From: Halothece sp. PCC 7418
GTDB lineage: Bacteria; Cyanobacteriota; Cyanobacteriia; Cyanobacteriales; Rubidibacteraceae
Reading direction: 5' to 3'
Assembly (NCBI RefSeq): GCF_000317635.1
Contig: NC_019779.1
Coordinates: 2,604,001-2,668,000 of the forward strand
Length of the DNA stretch: 64,000 bases
The notes beneath the pieces are model-generated. The model was not told the DNA's origin and did no database searches. It saw only the letters and a list, made by a program, of their open reading frames with translations. The position numbers and the translations under genes are program-made. Every line of letters starts with the position of its first letter. Positions within the stretch are counted from its first letter, which is position 1. Shown one piece after another: positions 10,600-21,678 of this stretch.

Positions 10600-11097
10600 A
10601 TGTCCGATCTATACATTTCTTGGTCAGAATATTATCAAACCATTGAACAACTCGCGATTCAAATTGATCAATCGGGTTGGGAGTTTAATCAAATTGTATG
10701 TATTGCGAAAGGAGGTTTGCGGGTTGGTGATATTTTTTCCCGACTCTTTGACCTTCCTTTAGCGATTATGTCTGCTGCATCTTATGGCGGTGAAAACAAT
10801 CAAACCCGAGGTAAAATTCAACTGTCTCAACATCTTGCAATGACAACCTCTCAATTAGGAAATCAAGTGTTGCTAGTGGATGATTTAGTGGATTCAGGAG
10901 TCAGTTTGCAAGTAACGATTGATTGGCTAAAACAACATTATCCAGAAATTACAGAACTACGCAGTGCAGTGTTATGGCGCAAAGATTGTTCTGTTATTAC
11001 CCCTGATTACTATGTTCATTATCTCAAAGATAACCCTTGGATTCATCAACCCTTTGAACATTATGAACAAATCACTGTTCAGGATTTAGATAAATGA
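10600..11097 (+). CDS. Phosphoribosyltransferase family protein (Gpt/xanthine-guanine type)
   Basis: The 165-residue type I phosphoribosyltransferase carries the PRPP-binding loop LLVDDLVDSG at about residues 90-100 and the early IVCIAKGGLRVGD segment that shapes the purine and pyrophosphate site. Family members salvage purine bases using PRPP in the cytoplasm. A hypoxanthine/guanine/xanthine role is likely, but the base is not certain. Its stop overlaps convergently by 19 bp with the end of the giant kinase gene. Confidence 0.85.
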   Translation: MSDLYISWSEYYQTIEQLAIQIDQSGWEFNQIVCIAKGGLRVGDIFSRLFDLPLAIMSAASYGGENNQTRGKIQLSQHLAMTTSQLGNQVLLVDDLVDSGVSLQVTIDWLKQHYPEITELRSAVLWRKDCSVITPDYYVHYLKDNPWIHQPFEHYEQITVQDLDK

Positions 11098-14000
11098 TGC
11101 GCGATCCAATCTTGATTAAAAATCCTCTGATAAATCTGATTTTTGACTTTCAGATTTCCCGCTTCTTTCTCGACTAACCCCGAGAGTAATAACACTTGTT
11201 CGGCGGGTGTTTCGGAACTAGAAACCTGACCTGATTCTAAAATCTGTTGATAAAGCGGTAGGGTTTCCTGTGCGGGAACAGAAGAGTAGAGAACGCGATC
11301 GCGCACGGTTCTTAAATGTTCGGGTTCATCTTGGCTTTCCCAATTATTAATAATCTTCGTTTGTACTAGATTTTCCACCCATTCTGCTTCCTCATTTGTC
11401 GGAATAGTCTCAGAGGTTTGACGAATTAAGCGACAGAGTTTTTGCGTCAGAAACGGTTGTCCATTCGTCCAAGATAAAATTTCTCGTAATAAGGTTTGGG
11501 GATTTTCCACTTTTTCCGTTAACCCCTGTAACAAGGGTTGGGCTTCATGTTGCTTAAATCCTTTTAAGGTAATTTCTTGACCAATATTAAAGGGCGTTCT
11601 CTGATAGTCGGTAATCAAATCAGAAGGCGTTGCAACTCCTAATAAAACAAACGTTAACCGTTGATATTCTGGTTTGAGACTACGTTGATTGTAACAGGAA
11701 CGAATCAGGGCAAAAAAGTCATTGACTGAGAAGTTTAAACCCAAAACACAATCAATTTCATCAATAAAAATCACAATCTTCTCTTGTTCTCCAACATAGG
11801 GAAGCAAGACTTCTTCAATAAAGTGACTCAATCGTTGAACGGGAGATAAATCCGTTTGTTCATTCCACCAGCTTTTGAAATTCACCACTCGTAATAATCC
11901 AAAATTCTTCCACAACTCCACCGCTAACCCTTTGTACCATTGACTGGGAGTGACTTCATCGCTTCCAATACGAGTTAAATCAACCGCAGCGCAAGCAAAT
12001 CCTTCTTTACGGAGATGCTGCATCATTTGAATCATTAAACTCGATTTTCCCATTTGTCGGGGATTGAGAATATAACAAAATTCTCCTTGTTTTAATGCTT
12101 TGTAGAGATAGCGATCCGCCGAACGCACCACATAAGTTGGCGCATCCATCGGTAAACTTCCCCCCACTTGATAATAATAAGCAGAAAAGTCTTCTTCACT
12201 TTTAAGGAGGCGGTTTTCAAACTTGAGTTCGGCTTGGGTTGCTTTCAATATTTCTAAAGTTTCGGAAAGGCTTTGGGTGCGTTGTTGTATTTTTTGTTCT
12301 AAGTTTTGATTGGATTCAGCTAAATAGGCTTTTGCGAGTTCTAAATCCATATTCAGTGCTTCCATATCTTGATAAAGCACCGCATTTTTAAGAGAAATTG
12401 CAGCCTGAGAAGAGAGAAGGTTAATTACTTCTAAACGGTCACTTGTAAAGGCTTCGGTCGTCAAGTTATTTTCCAGATAAATTAAACCGAGAAATTCCCC
12501 TTGATTTAAAATTGGCGTACATAACACGGATCGAGGTTGATTCTGAATAATGTAAGGATCTTGATGGAATAGTTCCTCTGTACTCGCTTCATCTAAAATT
12601 GTACTTTCTTTTGTCCTAGCAACATAATTAATAATCGAAAGTGGGATCTGGGTGCTACTGATGACTGGCGTTGAAAGCAGCAATTTTGTTTCTGTTTTTT
12701 GCGAATAAGCCTCAATGAATAATTGCTGCTCTTTTTCTAAAATTAAATATCCAATTTGTGCGCCAGCATTTTCAACAACTATTTCAATTAACTTCGCCAG
12801 CAAATTATCTAAGATGATTTCTGAAGAGAGGCTTTGATGAGCTTTAATAATTGTCATCAAGTCTAAGTTTCTCGGATCGCTATTTGTGCTTGAATCTAAT
12901 TCAGTTGAGGTTTTAATTTTCGGTAAAGGTATGGTTTCCGCTAGGCGAAATTGTGGATATCTTGTTTCTAAATCTTCCACTTTAGCAGTTGACCCCCATC
13001 GCCGATAAGCATAGTGTGCTTCTGCTAGATAGGTTTGGGCAATTTTCTGGCGACCTAAACCTAAATAAAATTCCCCAGCCAGTTCATTTCCTAAAGCAAC
13101 ATATTGAATGTATCTATTTTCTTTTGCGCCAATAATTGCGCGATCGTAAAGTTCCATTGCGGTCAAAGTTTCTCCTAAAACCTTTGCTTTTTCCGCTTCT
13201 ACCAGTTCATAGCGATATTTAAAATTCATTGGTGCATAATATGCCCAAGTTTTCATTAATTCTTGGTTTTCAATAACTTGTTGTACATCTTGATGATTTT
13301 TATTACTTTCTAATTCACTAGTACGGTACTGACCTAAAAGTGATAAAGAATAATATAAGTTATGTTCTGTAAAAATAAACTCAGCCTTAATAAATAGCGA
13401 GTAGTCTAAAGCAAGTTTACTATATTGAATTGCGTCTTGGTACTGTTTAGATAAATAAGAAAGTAAAACTTTGTAGAAATAGTATTGAAACAAAACAATT
13501 TGATTATTTACAGTTTTCAGATATTCAATATCTTCTACCTCTTGCAAGAACTCGCCTTGAAGATCATTATTGAGTTGATAATTAGTTATTAAATTAGTGA
13601 CAGCTTGAGCAGAAATATTAGTAAAAAATAGTTGATATTCTTTTTTATTTTGTCTGATAAAATCAAGATAATATTTTTGTTTTTTATGAACATCTTCTAG
13701 GTTTTCTCCGACAAAAAAAGAATGTTCACAGTAAAAATTGGCGCTATGACAGGCAAAGTCAAAATCACCATACTCAATTGCTTCTTGTATAGACTCAACT
13801 AAAAGGTGCATTACCTCTCTTAAATGTTTTTTCTTATATAGAATATTGATCGCACTTGGCATCTTAACTTGTGGCGATACAATTTGTGCATTTATTTGTT
13901 TGAGGAGAATTAAAGCTACTTCCGCTAATTGATAGCCTAAGTTGATATCATTTCTTAAACAAATTACTGTTGTTCCATAGTTAACATAACTATAAAGTAT

Positions 14001-16766
14001 AGAAATAGAGTTTCCATGTTTTTTCGCAAGAGTAAGATTGGTGTAAATAATAGGACGGGTAATAGGATGAAGACTAAATGCAGCAGGTGCTGTGATGAGG
14101 CTTAAAACTTTGTTCCCTAGTGCTATAAAAGGGTCAGAAATTTCTGGTAAATCCAGTAATTGAGAAGGATTAATTGTCGGTTCAGATTCCACGATTTCAA
14201 TTCCTAAAATGTCTAAGACTTTTAGACCATTTTCTACACTCAATAAGAGTTCTTGATTACTAATATTAATTTGAATTTCTATGAGCATGAATTTTGTTCG
14301 GTCTAAGTCATTATCTGACTGTTTTTGACCAATTTGACATAATCTAAGTGCTTCTTCTAAGTTTGCGTTTAAGTATTCTACTTCAGCAGACTCTAGATAG
14401 ATCTCAACAGTTTGTTGATAGTTATTTTGCCAGTTCTCATCATCTAAAATTTGACGACAAGTGTGGAAATGATTTGCAGCTAAGTCGTAAGCGGTTGATT
14501 GCTTGGCTTTTTTTCCTGCTTTCAAGTTAAGAACGACTAATTCTTGTCTTTCCTCTTCAGAAGTTAGTAAATCGAATCCTAAGTTCAGTTGATTAACAAG
14601 AACAAATAAAATCTCTTCTTGTTCTTTTTCGGTACTATTTTGAAGTAATAATTGACCAATCTTAAGATGGGTTGCTTTCTTTTCTGTGACTGGAATTAGA
14701 GAATAAGCAGCTTGTTGAATGCGATCATGTAAAAATCGGTATTCTATTTCCCCATGATTTAAGCTAGTTTTACTTCCTTTTGAATCAATTGTAATAAAGT
14801 TTTGTTGTAGTGCTGGCTCTAGATTATTTTTAGCAAAATCAGAAGAACATTGATGAATCTTTACTAAACTGGATAAACTAAATTGATAACCGATACAAGC
14901 TGCTGCTTTTAAAATCTCTTGTGTTGTTTGTGGTAGTTTCTGAAAATTTCGAGCTAAAAGCTCAACTAAATTCAGATCGGCTAAACCTACTCCTTGTATG
15001 ACGTTTAAGTCCCAAAGCCACTGATCGGCTTGATAATTGTAATTAATAATCTTTTCTTCATCGAGTGTCTTGAGAAATTGGTTAATAAAGAAGGGATTTC
15101 CTTGTGTTTTCTCAAAAACTAAATGACTCAATTGTTGGATTTTTTGCGGATCTGCTTTGGTTTCAAAAGTATCCGCCATGAACTCATGAACCTGATCAAT
15201 ATTAAGGGACTGAACCGTGATTTCAATAATTTTTGTGTTGTGTTCATTTTTAAGCTGATTTAGAATATGAAGCAGAGGATGAGTGAGCTTAACTTCATTA
15301 TCGCGATAGGCCCCAATGAGTAAGAAATATTTTGCATTGGGATTACTCACTAAATACTGAATGAGCTTTAAAGAAGCCGTGTCAGCCCATTGCAAATCGT
15401 CAAGAAAGAGAACGAGCGGATGTTTGGCTTGAGAAAAAACGTTTGTAAATTGTTGGAAAACTCGATGAAAACGATTTTGAATTGCTTGTCCTTCTAGGAT
15501 CGGAACATCAGGTTGCGGTCCAATTAGAATTTCTAGTTCTGGAATTAAATCAATAATAATTTTACCGTTATTCCCAAGAGCAGTTTGAATTTGTTTTTGC
15601 CAAACTGCAATTTCCTCAGCACTCGTCGTTAATAACTGTGAGATTAAGTTTTGAAAGGCTTCAATGATTGCAGAATAAGGTGTTTCTTGTTTATATTGAT
15701 CAAATTTACCACTGATAAAATATCCTCGCGCTTGCGATACGGGTGGGTAAATTTCGCGGACAATTGAAGTTTTTCCAATTCCAGCATAACCAGAAATGAC
15801 AGCAAAACTGCTGTTTCCTTGTTGGATCGTTGAGAAAGCGTTAAGGAGAACTTGGATTTCTTCTTCTCGTCCATAGAGCTTTTGGGGGAGAATTAAATAA
15901 GGAGCGCGATCGCGCTGTCCTAAAATAAAAGAATTAACGGTGCGATAGTTTTGATATTGCTGAACACAAGATTCTAAATCAAACTTTAATCCTTCTGCGG
16001 TTTGATATCTATCTTCTGCACTTTTGGCGAGGAGTTTCAAAACTACATGAGAAACCCCTAAAGGAATGTTCGCTGAGAGTTGATGCGGTGGAATCGGATC
16101 TTGGGCAAGATGGCTATGAATCAGTTCTAGTGGGTCAGTGCTAACATAAGGGAGTTGTCCTGTCAGCATTTCATAGAAGGTGACTCCCAGAGAATATAAG
16201 TCGCTACGATGGTCGAGATAGCGATTCATTCTCCCCGTTTGCTCAGGGGACATATAAGCAAACGTTCCCGCCATCAGGTTAGGATTTTGCAGAGTTGGGT
16301 ATTCAAATGGGGCGCGAATGGCAATATTAAAGTCAGTGAGTTTAACCTCTTGTGTGTTTGGGTTAATAATAATGTTGCTGGGTTTAATATCTTTGTGAAT
16401 AATGGGGATTTGATGGAGTTGATTTAAAGTTTCAGCCAAATGAATGCCAACGGTGAAAAATTCTTCTAGGGAAAGAGGATGAACCGAAAGATATTCCGCT
16501 AGGGATTGACCGCCGAAGTCTTCTAAAATCAGGGCATAGCTATTGCCATCAGCTTCGAGAGAATAGGCTTTGATAATCCGAGGACAATCAAGATTCCCAC
16601 TAATTTCATATTCATTTTGTAAGCTCTCAATCTCTTTTAATTCTGGTGTCTCTGACTTAAGGCGTTTAATAATCACCCTTTGACTGTCACTATTTCGGAT
16701 TCCGCGATAAATAATGGTTTTATTCCGTTGCGCGATCGTCTCTTGAATGGTGTATCCTGACAACAT
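11079..16766 (-). CDS. Giant Ser/Thr kinase - AAA ATPase - GAF - AAA-like domain signalling protein
   Basis: The 1895 residues read as: protein kinase domain (1-270), predicted ATPase with Walker A GYAGIGKTS near 327, a long helical TPR-like region (600-1250), a GAF domain (about 1320-1465), a coiled coil, and a C-terminal AAA-like domain with Walker A NPRQMGKSS near 1572. The kinase loop reads HKDIKPSN in place of HRD, and the DFG position is DFN, so activity may differ from classical kinases. Related cyanobacterial proteins often end in a histidine kinase; here the end is an AAA-like ATPase similar to the one in the next gene upstream. It probably integrates a small-molecule or light signal through GAF, with an unknown output. 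Confidence 0.88.
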   Translation of the reverse strand: MLSGYTIQETIAQRNKTIIYRGIRNSDSQRVIIKRLKSETPELKEIESLQNEYEISGNLDCPRIIKAYSLEADGNSYALILEDFGGQSLAEYLSVHPLSLEEFFTVGIHLAETLNQLHQIPIIHKDIKPSNIIINPNTQEVKLTDFNIAIRAPFEYPTLQNPNLMAGTFAYMSPEQTGRMNRYLDHRSDLYSLGVTFYEMLTGQLPYVSTDPLELIHSHLAQDPIPPHQLSANIPLGVSHVVLKLLAKSAEDRYQTAEGLKFDLESCVQQYQNYRTVNSFILGQRDRAPYLILPQKLYGREEEIQVLLNAFSTIQQGNSSFAVISGYAGIGKTSIVREIYPPVSQARGYFISGKFDQYKQETPYSAIIEAFQNLISQLLTTSAEEIAVWQKQIQTALGNNGKIIIDLIPELEILIGPQPDVPILEGQAIQNRFHRVFQQFTNVFSQAKHPLVLFLDDLQWADTASLKLIQYLVSNPNAKYFLLIGAYRDNEVKLTHPLLHILNQLKNEHNTKIIEITVQSLNIDQVHEFMADTFETKADPQKIQQLSHLVFEKTQGNPFFINQFLKTLDEEKIINYNYQADQWLWDLNVIQGVGLADLNLVELLARNFQKLPQTTQEILKAAACIGYQFSLSSLVKIHQCSSDFAKNNLEPALQQNFITIDSKGSKTSLNHGEIEYRFLHDRIQQAAYSLIPVTEKKATHLKIGQLLLQNSTEKEQEEILFVLVNQLNLGFDLLTSEEERQELVVLNLKAGKKAKQSTAYDLAANHFHTCRQILDDENWQNNYQQTVEIYLESAEVEYLNANLEEALRLCQIGQKQSDNDLDRTKFMLIEIQINISNQELLLSVENGLKVLDILGIEIVESEPTINPSQLLDLPEISDPFIALGNKVLSLITAPAAFSLHPITRPIIYTNLTLAKKHGNSISILYSYVNYGTTVICLRNDINLGYQLAEVALILLKQINAQIVSPQVKMPSAINILYKKKHLREVMHLLVESIQEAIEYGDFDFACHSANFYCEHSFFVGENLEDVHKKQKYYLDFIRQNKKEYQLFFTNISAQAVTNLITNYQLNNDLQGEFLQEVEDIEYLKTVNNQIVLFQYYFYKVLLSYLSKQYQDAIQYSKLALDYSLFIKAEFIFTEHNLYYSLSLLGQYRTSELESNKNHQDVQQVIENQELMKTWAYYAPMNFKYRYELVEAEKAKVLGETLTAMELYDRAIIGAKENRYIQYVALGNELAGEFYLGLGRQKIAQTYLAEAHYAYRRWGSTAKVEDLETRYPQFRLAETIPLPKIKTSTELDSSTNSDPRNLDLMTIIKAHQSLSSEIILDNLLAKLIEIVVENAGAQIGYLILEKEQQLFIEAYSQKTETKLLLSTPVISSTQIPLSIINYVARTKESTILDEASTEELFHQDPYIIQNQPRSVLCTPILNQGEFLGLIYLENNLTTEAFTSDRLEVINLLSSQAAISLKNAVLYQDMEALNMDLELAKAYLAESNQNLEQKIQQRTQSLSETLEILKATQAELKFENRLLKSEEDFSAYYYQVGGSLPMDAPTYVVRSADRYLYKALKQGEFCYILNPRQMGKSSLMIQMMQHLRKEGFACAAVDLTRIGSDEVTPSQWYKGLAVELWKNFGLLRVVNFKSWWNEQTDLSPVQRLSHFIEEVLLPYVGEQEKIVIFIDEIDCVLGLNFSVNDFFALIRSCYNQRSLKPEYQRLTFVLLGVATPSDLITDYQRTPFNIGQEITLKGFKQHEAQPLLQGLTEKVENPQTLLREILSWTNGQPFLTQKLCRLIRQTSETIPTNEEAEWVENLVQTKIINNWESQDEPEHLRTVRDRVLYSSVPAQETLPLYQQILESGQVSSSETPAEQVLLLSGLVEKEAGNLKVKNQIYQRIFNQDWIAHHLSKS

Positions 16767-16830
16767 AAGCGAATCTGGGGGTCTGGTTACGAAACATTAA
16801 AGGTTTGGAAAATGAGGGAAAACCTCTTTT

Positions 16831-16944
16831 TCAAAATCTAGTCGATTGATCGCGAGGAGTAGTCCAATCACTCAGTTCACAGCGACTTGCGGTGAGGACA
16901 GAATTGGGAATCTGAACCGTATCATCGGAGTGGATTGCATTCAT
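16831..16944 (-). CDS. Possible 37-residue protein coupled to the AAA-like ATPase gene
   Basis: An ATG at 16942-16944 overlaps the TGA of the upstream ATPase gene (ATGA), the same coupling used by real operon partners in this window. The frame runs 37 codons to TGA at 16831, reading MNAIHSDDTVQIPNSVL and ending STRF. A stem AGGTTT/AAACCT follows within 30 bases and could end transcription. I do not recognise the peptide. Evidence is only the overlap and position; it could be chance. Confidence 0.35.
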   Translation of the reverse strand: MNAIHSDDTVQIPNSVLTASRCELSDWTTPRDQSTRF

Positions 16945-18296
16945 GTTTCTTTTGAGTAATACTGTTTTAAGGTTTGTTGAAAATACTGTTGATAGAGGGG
17001 AACTCTCGGAAACGCGCGATCGCCGTTAAAGTCAATTAACCCCATACTGTAGAGCTTATAGGCTGAGGTCGCATCAACTGTAATCGGTTCTGGTGCACTC
17101 ATAATCGCAAAACAAGCCTGAGCTAATTCGGGTTGTTCTTGTAATTTGGCTTGGTGACGACGGAGATGAGGGGCATAAATCCCACTTAAAGTCGCAGCAT
17201 CCACCAGAAGTTCCTCTAGTGTCACCTCTCCTTGATTAAGATGATAGAGGGTAAGGTGAACGAGAGCAGGATGTCCATTAATCACTGACATTAATTGATT
17301 GACTTCCTCTTCTCTCCAAGACAGTCCGTAGCGTTGCGCTAATTCTTGGACTTCCTCAGCACTAAAATTTGGGAGTTCTAGCGGTAATCCGACATTACTA
17401 AATGGAGACTGGTTTAACTGTAATGGAACATAAACTTCTGTGGAGTGAATAACCACCAGACGGAGATTGCGCCAAATTGAAACATTTTTGGTTTCTTCAT
17501 ACCAAGATCGCAGCAGGGGTAAAAAACTTTTGGCAATTTTGGGATACTCAAAAATTTGATTCACTTCGTCAAAAGCGAGAATGAAGGGTGTATCCAGTTG
17601 TTCTAAAATATAGTGGAGGTAAAGGGTACAACTGACACCACTACCAATATCTTCCTGCCAATAGTCATCGAGTTTGGCTTCTATATTCAATTGATAAGTA
17701 ATATTGGCACAAACCCAACGTAAAAAGCGATTCACGTTGCTTAATATCTCCTGATCCGCTTGCTGGAGATCAAGGTTCACTGTGGCATACCCGAGACGAT
17801 TTCCATACTCGAAAAGTCTAATCAGGAGAGACGTTTTCCCCATTTCTTGCGGGGCTTTAATCCGTAATAATGCCCCTGCTTGTTGAATCCCTCGATAAGT
17901 TTCTTCTTCAATCGATTGCCGTTGAATATAAACTTTAGAACCCAGAGGGATTGCCCCACTGGGATAAGGGAAAGACTTGGAAGAAGATGTGACAACTCTT
18001 GATGAAGCGGTGGATTTATTCAAATAGGATTCTAGAATAATACGACTGTTTTTTTTTGTCACCCGTTTCCCGATGAGGGTGCTCAAACGTTGCCATAACC
18101 GAGGCGCAACGACATTACTAAAATACCCTACACTGTACCCAGATTGTTTCGCAATTGCACTATAGGTCTGATCCTGCCAAATTCCTTGTAATACTAAAAT
18201 TTCTGTTGAATTTAAACAAGACTGTTCATTTTCTACAAGATCATGGTTTAGTTTTTCGATGAGAAGATGAAAGGTTTGAGAATTAGGAAGAGACAT
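16941..18296 (-). CDS. AAA-like domain ATPase with N-terminal helix-turn-helix region
   Basis: This 451-residue protein has about 100 N-terminal residues with the pattern YSAIAKQSGYSVGYFSN, a helix-turn-helix of the kind found at the start of vWA-MoxR-associated (VMAP) and NTPase conflict-system proteins. The AAA-like domain (AAA_35 type) follows: Walker A EMGKTSLL near 153 and Walker B FILAFDEVN near 240, then a winged-helix-like end. The C-terminal domain of the giant kinase encoded just downstream is of the same family, so the two may work in one switch. The cellular role is unknown. Confidence 0.8.
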   Translation of the reverse strand: MSLPNSQTFHLLIEKLNHDLVENEQSCLNSTEILVLQGIWQDQTYSAIAKQSGYSVGYFSNVVAPRLWQRLSTLIGKRVTKKNSRIILESYLNKSTASSRVVTSSSKSFPYPSGAIPLGSKVYIQRQSIEEETYRGIQQAGALLRIKAPQEMGKTSLLIRLFEYGNRLGYATVNLDLQQADQEILSNVNRFLRWVCANITYQLNIEAKLDDYWQEDIGSGVSCTLYLHYILEQLDTPFILAFDEVNQIFEYPKIAKSFLPLLRSWYEETKNVSIWRNLRLVVIHSTEVYVPLQLNQSPFSNVGLPLELPNFSAEEVQELAQRYGLSWREEEVNQLMSVINGHPALVHLTLYHLNQGEVTLEELLVDAATLSGIYAPHLRRHQAKLQEQPELAQACFAIMSAPEPITVDATSAYKLYSMGLIDFNGDRAFPRVPLYQQYFQQTLKQYYSKET

Positions 18297-21270: not shown

Positions 21271-21678
21271 CTAATGACTCGCTAATTCTTGCAATTTTTC
21301 CGTCCAACGGGCTGCGAGGGAGATATCAGTAAAAGGAATTTCTACATTTTCTGAATTAGGAAACGCAAACTGAATCGCAGGCTTTCCTTTCCGAGGAGGG
21401 TTGTCTAAAACAACAGGCGTTTCGTCAACCAGTAATTTGATTTCTGCGACATCATGGAGGGAAAAGGTTTGTAAGGCTTCTGGTATTCCCCGTGTCGGTT
21501 TTCCCCAAGTAATTTTATCGTCTTTTTGCCCTAACACAGCATAGATATCATATTTGGCGCGATCAAACTGTTCTGCCCAGTTGCGATAGGCTTCTACCTT
21601 TTGATATTCATTCCACCCCGCCCACGCTAAACCAATGAATAACGCGAGGAGGGGAAGCCAGATTAATCCTCTTTCCAT
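21271..21678 (-). CDS. Single-pass membrane protein of unknown function next to PspA
   Basis: The 135-residue protein has one N-terminal membrane helix (residues 5-21, WLPLLALFIGLAWAGW), then a soluble domain of about 110 residues rich in short beta strands. It is 3 bp downstream of the PspA/IM30 gene on the same strand, so the two are probably co-transcribed. I do not recognise the family. Position suggests a role at the membrane in the same stress response, but that is guesswork. Confidence 0.7.
   Translation of the reverse strand: MERGLIWLPLLALFIGLAWAGWNEYQKVEAYRNWAEQFDRAKYDIYAVLGQKDDKITWGKPTRGIPEALQTFSLHDVAEIKLLVDETPVVLDNPPRKGKPAIQFAFPNSENVEIPFTDISLAARWTEKLQELASH

Follow-up and report, generated by a model that had tools for sequence, protein, structure and literature searches.

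Why does a very large protein kinase of the cyanobacterium Halothece sp. PCC 7418 end in an AAA-like ATPase domain, and why does a second gene of the same Pfam family lie beside it? Here, we describe two minus-strand open reading frames (ORFs) in a window of 64,000 nucleotides (NC_019779.1, positions 2,604,001 to 2,668,000; the host genome is a single contig of 4,179,170 bases): 11079-16766, encoding a protein of 1895 residues (P0002, hereafter the giant), and 16941-18296, encoding one of 451 residues (P0001). Both carry an AAA_35 domain (PF14516), of a subtype here called B in the giant and A in P0001. On balance, we favour the reading that the pair is the remainder of a three-gene cyanobacterial signalling cassette made up of an HstK-like giant with a B output, an A-type partner with a helix-turn-helix (HTH)-like start, and a carotenoid-oxygenase gene since deleted. 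An initial annotation of the same DNA had seen a possible small signalling or defence module here; its observations were confirmed and its interpretation is partly supported.

Results

The giant consists, in order, of a Ser/Thr kinase (STK; Pfam Pkinase) domain (aa 15-258, 15993-16724), an AAA_16 ATPase domain (aa 296-484, 15315-15881), a helical region, a GAF domain (aa 1319-1459, 12390-12812), a helical or coiled linker (aa 1466-1533, 12168-12371) that may serve as a signalling helix and, immediately after the linker, AAA_35 B (aa 1536-1884, 11115-12161), with a predicted STAND-like fold, Walker A RQMGKSSL and Walker B IDEID; all of these, like the features of P0001 and the scar below, lie on the minus strand. 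The initial annotation had placed an AAA-like domain with the motif NPRQMGKSS at this end, where related proteins often carry a histidine kinase (HK), and both points hold: the motif is present, and giants with HK tails share the STK, AAA_16 and GAF parts. Against a Pfam cut-off of 27 bits, AAA_35 scores 122.8 in the giant's tail and 455.9 in P0001, and the two domains align over 252 columns with 23% identity (E=5e-12). The kinase retains its whole catalytic set (K34, E52, D126, N131 and D145), and its loop indeed reads HKD and DFN in place of HRD and DFG. HKD is a trait common to the giant family (41 of 43 giants with a B tail, 25 of 28 without one), and its reading as a degenerate kinase loop was rejected; DFN occurs in three of the 43 (the window, G294 and G150, all of this genus) and DFG in 35. 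A phosphoribosyltransferase gene on the plus strand (10600-11097) converges on the giant, with a 3' overlap of 19 bases.

P0001 has an HTH-like domain (aa 1-98, 18003-18296; predicted helices at 6-24, 30-40, 45-52, 56-75 and 84-98) and AAA_35 A (aa 111-441, 16974-17966), the latter again with a predicted STAND-like fold. Its start had been described as an HTH typical of NTP-dependent conflict proteins. Predicted helices and weak profile matches speak for the HTH: a profile of 34 A-type N-termini weakly matches response-regulator and sigma-factor chains, its higher score on lysozyme chain 5i8l being taken for chance, and P0001 itself matches no HTH family in Pfam. Since some of the 34 match HTH_26 (Cro/C1 type; four members) and others GerE (three members), A proteins seem to have acquired HTH domains of different types by exchange. 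The association with conflict proteins gained no support, as the term AAA_35 has no occurrence in the main text of PMC7159879 (Kaur et al. 2020), which, like PMC10907252, describes such systems in the parts available.

The space between the two genes holds traces of a third. It measures 174 bases in the window and about 2.09 kb in G294 (locus L075, same genus), where, in a gene-order comparison of 40 regions, the order is A, a 690-aa gene and the giant, with five flanking genes that pair with those of the window; the 690-aa gene is of the RPE65 carotenoid-oxygenase type (PF03055, 125 bits). A 37-codon frame (16831-16944), overlapping the stop of P0001 as ATGA, carries at 16861-16932 the remnant HSDDTVQIPNSVLTASRCELSD, which matches the oxygenase start (E=0.003 in a search of the 64-kb window). 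The remnant FEKEVFPHFP (16806-16835), in a different frame and colinear with the first, resembles the oxygenase C-terminus, seven or eight of the nine residues of FEKEVFPHF being as in three relatives. Because both ends of an oxygenase gene thus remain, in order, within 174 bases as against about 2.09 kb in G294, the 37-codon frame is best read as a deletion scar, with about 1.9 kb of the gene lost and its ends kept, and the ATGA overlap as inherited from the start of the lost gene. The frame and overlap reported earlier as a link between the two genes therefore exist, and the frame's interpretation as a gene or coupling peptide was rejected.

Relatives place this oxygenase in the cassette. 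G291 (L076, same genus) has the gene order of G294, with the oxygenase split into two ORFs, and in G051 an RPE65 gene of 722 aa accompanies a B-A fusion and a giant. In a tree built from the part of the giants that precedes GAF (quick method, SH-like approximate likelihood ratio test only), the window's giant falls in a clade of eight rows with support of 99, in which an oxygenase adjoins six giants, none is found in L063 and the window has the scar. PF03055 was matched by all three cassette oxygenase genes scanned, and the four His columns that we take to bind iron in RPE65-type oxygenases are conserved in 10/10 copies aligned. The host genome has three more RPE65 genes elsewhere (frames of 478-505 aa). 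At L063, 3989-5530 encodes an FAD-type oxidoreductase that is lycopene-cyclase-like by eye and unmatched in Pfam; its frame runs into the beginning of the longest ORF of the G150 giant.

The pairing recurs beyond this genus. A search with the giant's tail gave at least 566 loci, of which the best 80, all cyanobacterial, were used. Forty-nine giants with a B tail were reduced to 43 distinct ones by collapsing one duplicate and dropping five with no detected kinase or fewer than 1800 aa (L109, L122, L124, L135 and L203); L076 (in pieces at a contig end) and L208 (in two frames) also lie outside the 43. As controls, 21 giants with HK tails from 20 regions (L201 holds two) were taken, non-randomly, from the best-scoring rows, the tail being detected by an HK seed search in 19 and by Pfam in the other two. 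Positional counts use ORFs of at least 80 aa or with a seed match, and the relatives counted share ancestry. An A gene lies within five genes of 25/43 B-tail giants and of 0/21 HK-tail giants (Fisher 1.6e-6, uncorrected for relatedness), and within six genes of 27/43 (hand count); because of these frequencies, the statement that homologues of the two genes are never adjacent in other genomes, which the initial annotation had named as refuting its idea, fails. Across 388 genomes, at least 20 rows from 17 genomes combine a match to B with an open frame no shorter than 1800 aa (hand count; one more, partial, in G247).

Enzyme genes accompany the same giants. At least one of seven families lies within five genes of 33/43 B-tail giants and of 0/21 HK-tail giants; the seeds had been chosen from B-tail loci among L063-L081, and in the loci outside that choice the linkage is 19/27 (L123, a duplicate of L066, omitted). 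Near the 43 giants the counts are amidohydrolase 19, RPE65 oxygenase 10, X355 9, YcaO 7, radical SAM/SPASM 5, X397 4 and lipoxygenase 2. All 10 linked RPE65 genes are directly upstream of the giant on the same strand, with gaps of -4 to 231 bases, and lipoxygenase genes likewise stand directly upstream of B-tail giants at L071 (2863-6639) and L073 (12763-14526).

Other genes upstream of giants have the appearance of peptide-modification sets. X355/X397 genes occur there in L064 (12171-14706), L108, L111, L116, L121, L123 and L204; two of their proteins were scanned and gave no Pfam match, and of 15 sequences inspected, 14 have a length of 326-416 aa and a terminal motif like PPYPYIPLS followed by Cys, Ser or Thr, with YcaO and amidohydrolase genes adjoining. 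Proteins of 100-240 aa ending NPYIPTTC(S/T) adjoin radical SAM genes. From their sequences, all these proteins look like modified-peptide precursors with very long leaders. In L103 (2767-4998), L144 and L145, a TPR protein and an Asp/Pro-rich protein of 81-97 aa lie upstream of the giant, with TP_methylase in L103, a set that recalls borosin-type peptide methylation.

The AAA_35 domains fall into two subtypes with a shared, predicted STAND-like fold, namely B, as in the giant's tail, and A, joined to an HTH-like domain. In an alignment of 70 B-like rows (the window's B and 69 of 75 representatives), GK, the Walker B E and GxP are each present in 70/70, and in 52 A-like rows GK and GxP are in 52/52. 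The predicted models (predicted local distance difference test, pLDDT, 91.1 for A and 94.8 for B) find archaeal STAND ATPases best in structure searches, with NLR, CED-4 and ORC chains next: A has Z scores of 21.6 to 2qen, 18.9 to the NLR RPP1 and 17.9 to CED-4, and B has 19.9 to 2qen. Avs3 is also resembled by both predicted models, and Avs5 by that of B. The initial annotation's statement that P0001 belongs to the same ATPase family as the giant's tail thus holds at the level of PF14516, with the two falling into different subtypes.

A and B are associated outside the giants as well. B-A fusions occur in four proteins (L065_3, L066_10, L081_3 and L118_10), and for 34 N-terminal-B genes in named loci, counted without de-duplication, an A gene is immediately upstream on the same strand in 17, within four genes in 11 and absent in 6. 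On a tree of A proteins, those linked to giants cluster, making up 17/24 rows of one clade (0/500 shuffles as low). Of nine B proteins scanned elsewhere, four carry WD40 arrays and one carries CHASE2, and in another a dCache-HAMP-HK-receiver-PAS series precedes B. The last is L082 (10576-14856), which with L212 and L216-L219 encodes B-bearing proteins of 1327-1426 aa; A adjoins five of these six (L082, L212 and L216-L218), the exception, L219, being a 4.3-kb contig. Judging the interface by folding a B-A fusion was set aside, as B-only rows of the alignment were seemingly placed on the A half.

Seven split systems carry a related arrangement. Their giants have a HisKA/HATPase tail in 7/7, each with an enzyme-family gene nearby (7/7), and are followed by a protein of 122-124 aa and then by one of 726-739 aa with B; in the three of seven scanned, this downstream pair turned out to consist of a receiver and a receiver-PAS-AAA_35 protein (3/3). 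Since HK-tail giants beside the same enzymes precede genes for receiver and receiver-PAS-B proteins, the B tail may, on the simplest reading, stand in for a phosphorelay with B as its last member. On a quick tree, the label switches between B-tail and split-type giants at least five times, with HK-only rows uncounted.

Discussion

Beyond the architecture, scar, recurrence, linkage, fusions and predicted fold described above, we infer a contact between A and B, DNA binding, a ligand and a direction of signalling, which could be joined as follows. The giant would be an HstK-like STK-AAA_16-GAF kinase whose HK output was exchanged, past the helical linker, for B, and P0001 its separately encoded partner. 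The GAF, AAA_16 and kinase part would read a ligand or a phosphorylation state, and the linker would relay this to B, which would shift its nucleotide state and then engage A through both ATPase domains; the HTH of A, probably DNA-binding, would be the output. What the gene or genes next to the giant make (by a YcaO/radical-SAM/amidohydrolase set, a lipoxygenase or a carotenoid oxygenase) could plausibly act as the signal or be the output under control. In the host genome, the carotenoid-oxygenase gene would have been deleted, with the 37-codon scar remaining.

Several observations weigh against this scheme. A is directly upstream of the giant on the same strand in only 2/43 cases (the window and L112), 18/43 B-tail giants have no A within five genes (some contigs end nearby), and A is found in 0/7 split systems (2.9-3.3 kb upstream of the giant in view); because of the latter two counts, A may be dispensable or may work in trans. 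The acid pair of Walker B is looser in A (D in 46/52, E or D in 47/52), and promoter and terminator scans did no better than shuffles. Ten of the 43 lack all seven enzyme families (L063, L103, L112, L127, L129, L138, L144, L145, L167 and the window, some near contig ends), and near five of these, L063 (by eye), L103, L127, L144 and L145, there are enzymes of other kinds or modification-type genes. The linked oxygenase of L074, one of the 10, is a 62-aa fragment, and the enzyme families are too different for one common ligand, which they cannot share. The rarity of direct adjacency, together with the abundance of AAA_35 genes in some genomes, would suit an ordinary HstK-like kinase with an unrelated AAA_35 neighbour brought beside it by chance. 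We give this explanation little credence, given the proximity of A to B-tail giants and not to the controls, the B-A fusions, the clustering of giant-linked A proteins, and a search of the host's own genome (E<=0.001) in which PF14516 has two matches only, the giant and the adjoining P0001.

Decay in the genus is a further consideration. In G291 the oxygenase and the giant are both interrupted, and in G150 about 650 kb separate the giant from the A orthologue, with no oxygenase near the giant; the locus may thus be decaying in this genus. At L076 (13964-18887), which holds the two oxygenase ORFs of G291, the giant begins as two pieces that differ in frame, after which the contig ends; decay of the locus or assembly errors would give such a picture. 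A remnant with little or no function left in either gene after loss of the oxygenase would fit these facts and the fast divergence of the giant's middle region (50% identity to G294), and we nevertheless consider it unlikely: neither frame is broken along its 1895 or 451 codons, the catalytic motifs are retained, and identity to G294 is high in the B domain (83%, the best conserved part), the kinase (76%) and P0001 (77%). An anti-phage or abortive-infection module, in which a STAND-like pair would detect infection and then kill the cell or arrest it, is suggested by the fold likenesses to NLRs, CED-4, Avs3 and Avs5 and by the joining of B to WD40 arrays. It seems to us quite improbable, as Pfam finds no toxin or nuclease domain in either protein, the giants are linked to metabolic and peptide-modification-type enzymes, and P0001 bears an HTH-like domain. 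PADLOC has no family for P0001, and the best 25 of the giant's 33 matches, examined for a PD-T4-6 kinase match reaching past the kinase domain and drawn from a library without a cut-off, lie in the kinase region. Of the signalling or defence module first proposed, the signalling side stands as a candidate switch, and PADLOC offers nothing specific for defence.

Among known systems, the HstK type is close to the giant. The cbSTKIII proteins are described in the main text of PMC2176072 as STK, GAF and HisKA, and the term 'AAA' has no occurrence there. They share with the giant an N-terminal STK with its catalytic residues and a GAF upstream of the output, and differ in ending in HisKA/HATPase where Pfam places AAA_35 B. 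STAND ATPases (archaeal SSO1545/PABY2304, NLRs and CED-4) share with A and B the predicted nucleotide-binding, helical and winged-helix arrangement, Walker A/B and GxP. Unlike them, AAA_35 has two subtypes, near each other or fused; A bears an HTH-like domain and lacks repeats, and B here forms the output at the C-terminus of a kinase. In P0001 and the giant, whose sensor parts precede B, Pfam finds no sensor repeats C-terminal to the switch domain. In plants, paired NLRs act as sensor and helper. By analogy alone, the linked genes with variable B chains and a constant A partner resemble such pairs; the accessory domains are non-homologous, and plant pairs serve immunity, whereas the pair described here is known from sequence. 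The AAA_16 region of the giant also matches the TOMM kinase/cyclase fusion (TIGR03903) at 130.4 bits, far under the cut-off of 705.75; YcaO genes beside 7/43 B-tail giants are a likeness, and the lack of any cyclase family among the giant's Pfam matches is a difference. For the VMAP ternary system (MoxR ATPase, vWA and VMAP), there was no Pfam match in eight of nine ORFs of at least 120 aa between 5983 and 22404 (21271-21678 was outside the scan). Within the part of the result lists consulted, the literature searched showed no functional paper on AAA_35 and none on AAA_35 pairs or on giant-enzyme cassettes; PMC9679502, in the part available, merely lists an AAA-like gene carrying a one-base insertion.

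For the family, these loci suggest a signalling giant that exchanges its output at one joint, histidine kinase against STAND-like ATPase, with the phosphorelay version and the fused version both occurring beside the same enzymes. Much more tentatively, AAA_35 could form a paired-STAND system in which variable B sensor chains (kinase-GAF giants, receiver-PAS, dCache-HK, CHASE2 and WD40 proteins) signal to one unvarying, HTH-bearing partner A, the kinase branch senses or governs what the genes beside it make (an apocarotenoid, an oxylipin or a modified peptide), and the B tail is interchangeable with an HK-receiver-receiver phosphorelay. Such a STAND pair would, if true, be a new idea; AAA_35 would gain a role open to test, that of a switch with two subunits, and uncharacterised product-making genes would be flagged by the AAA_35 genes beside them.

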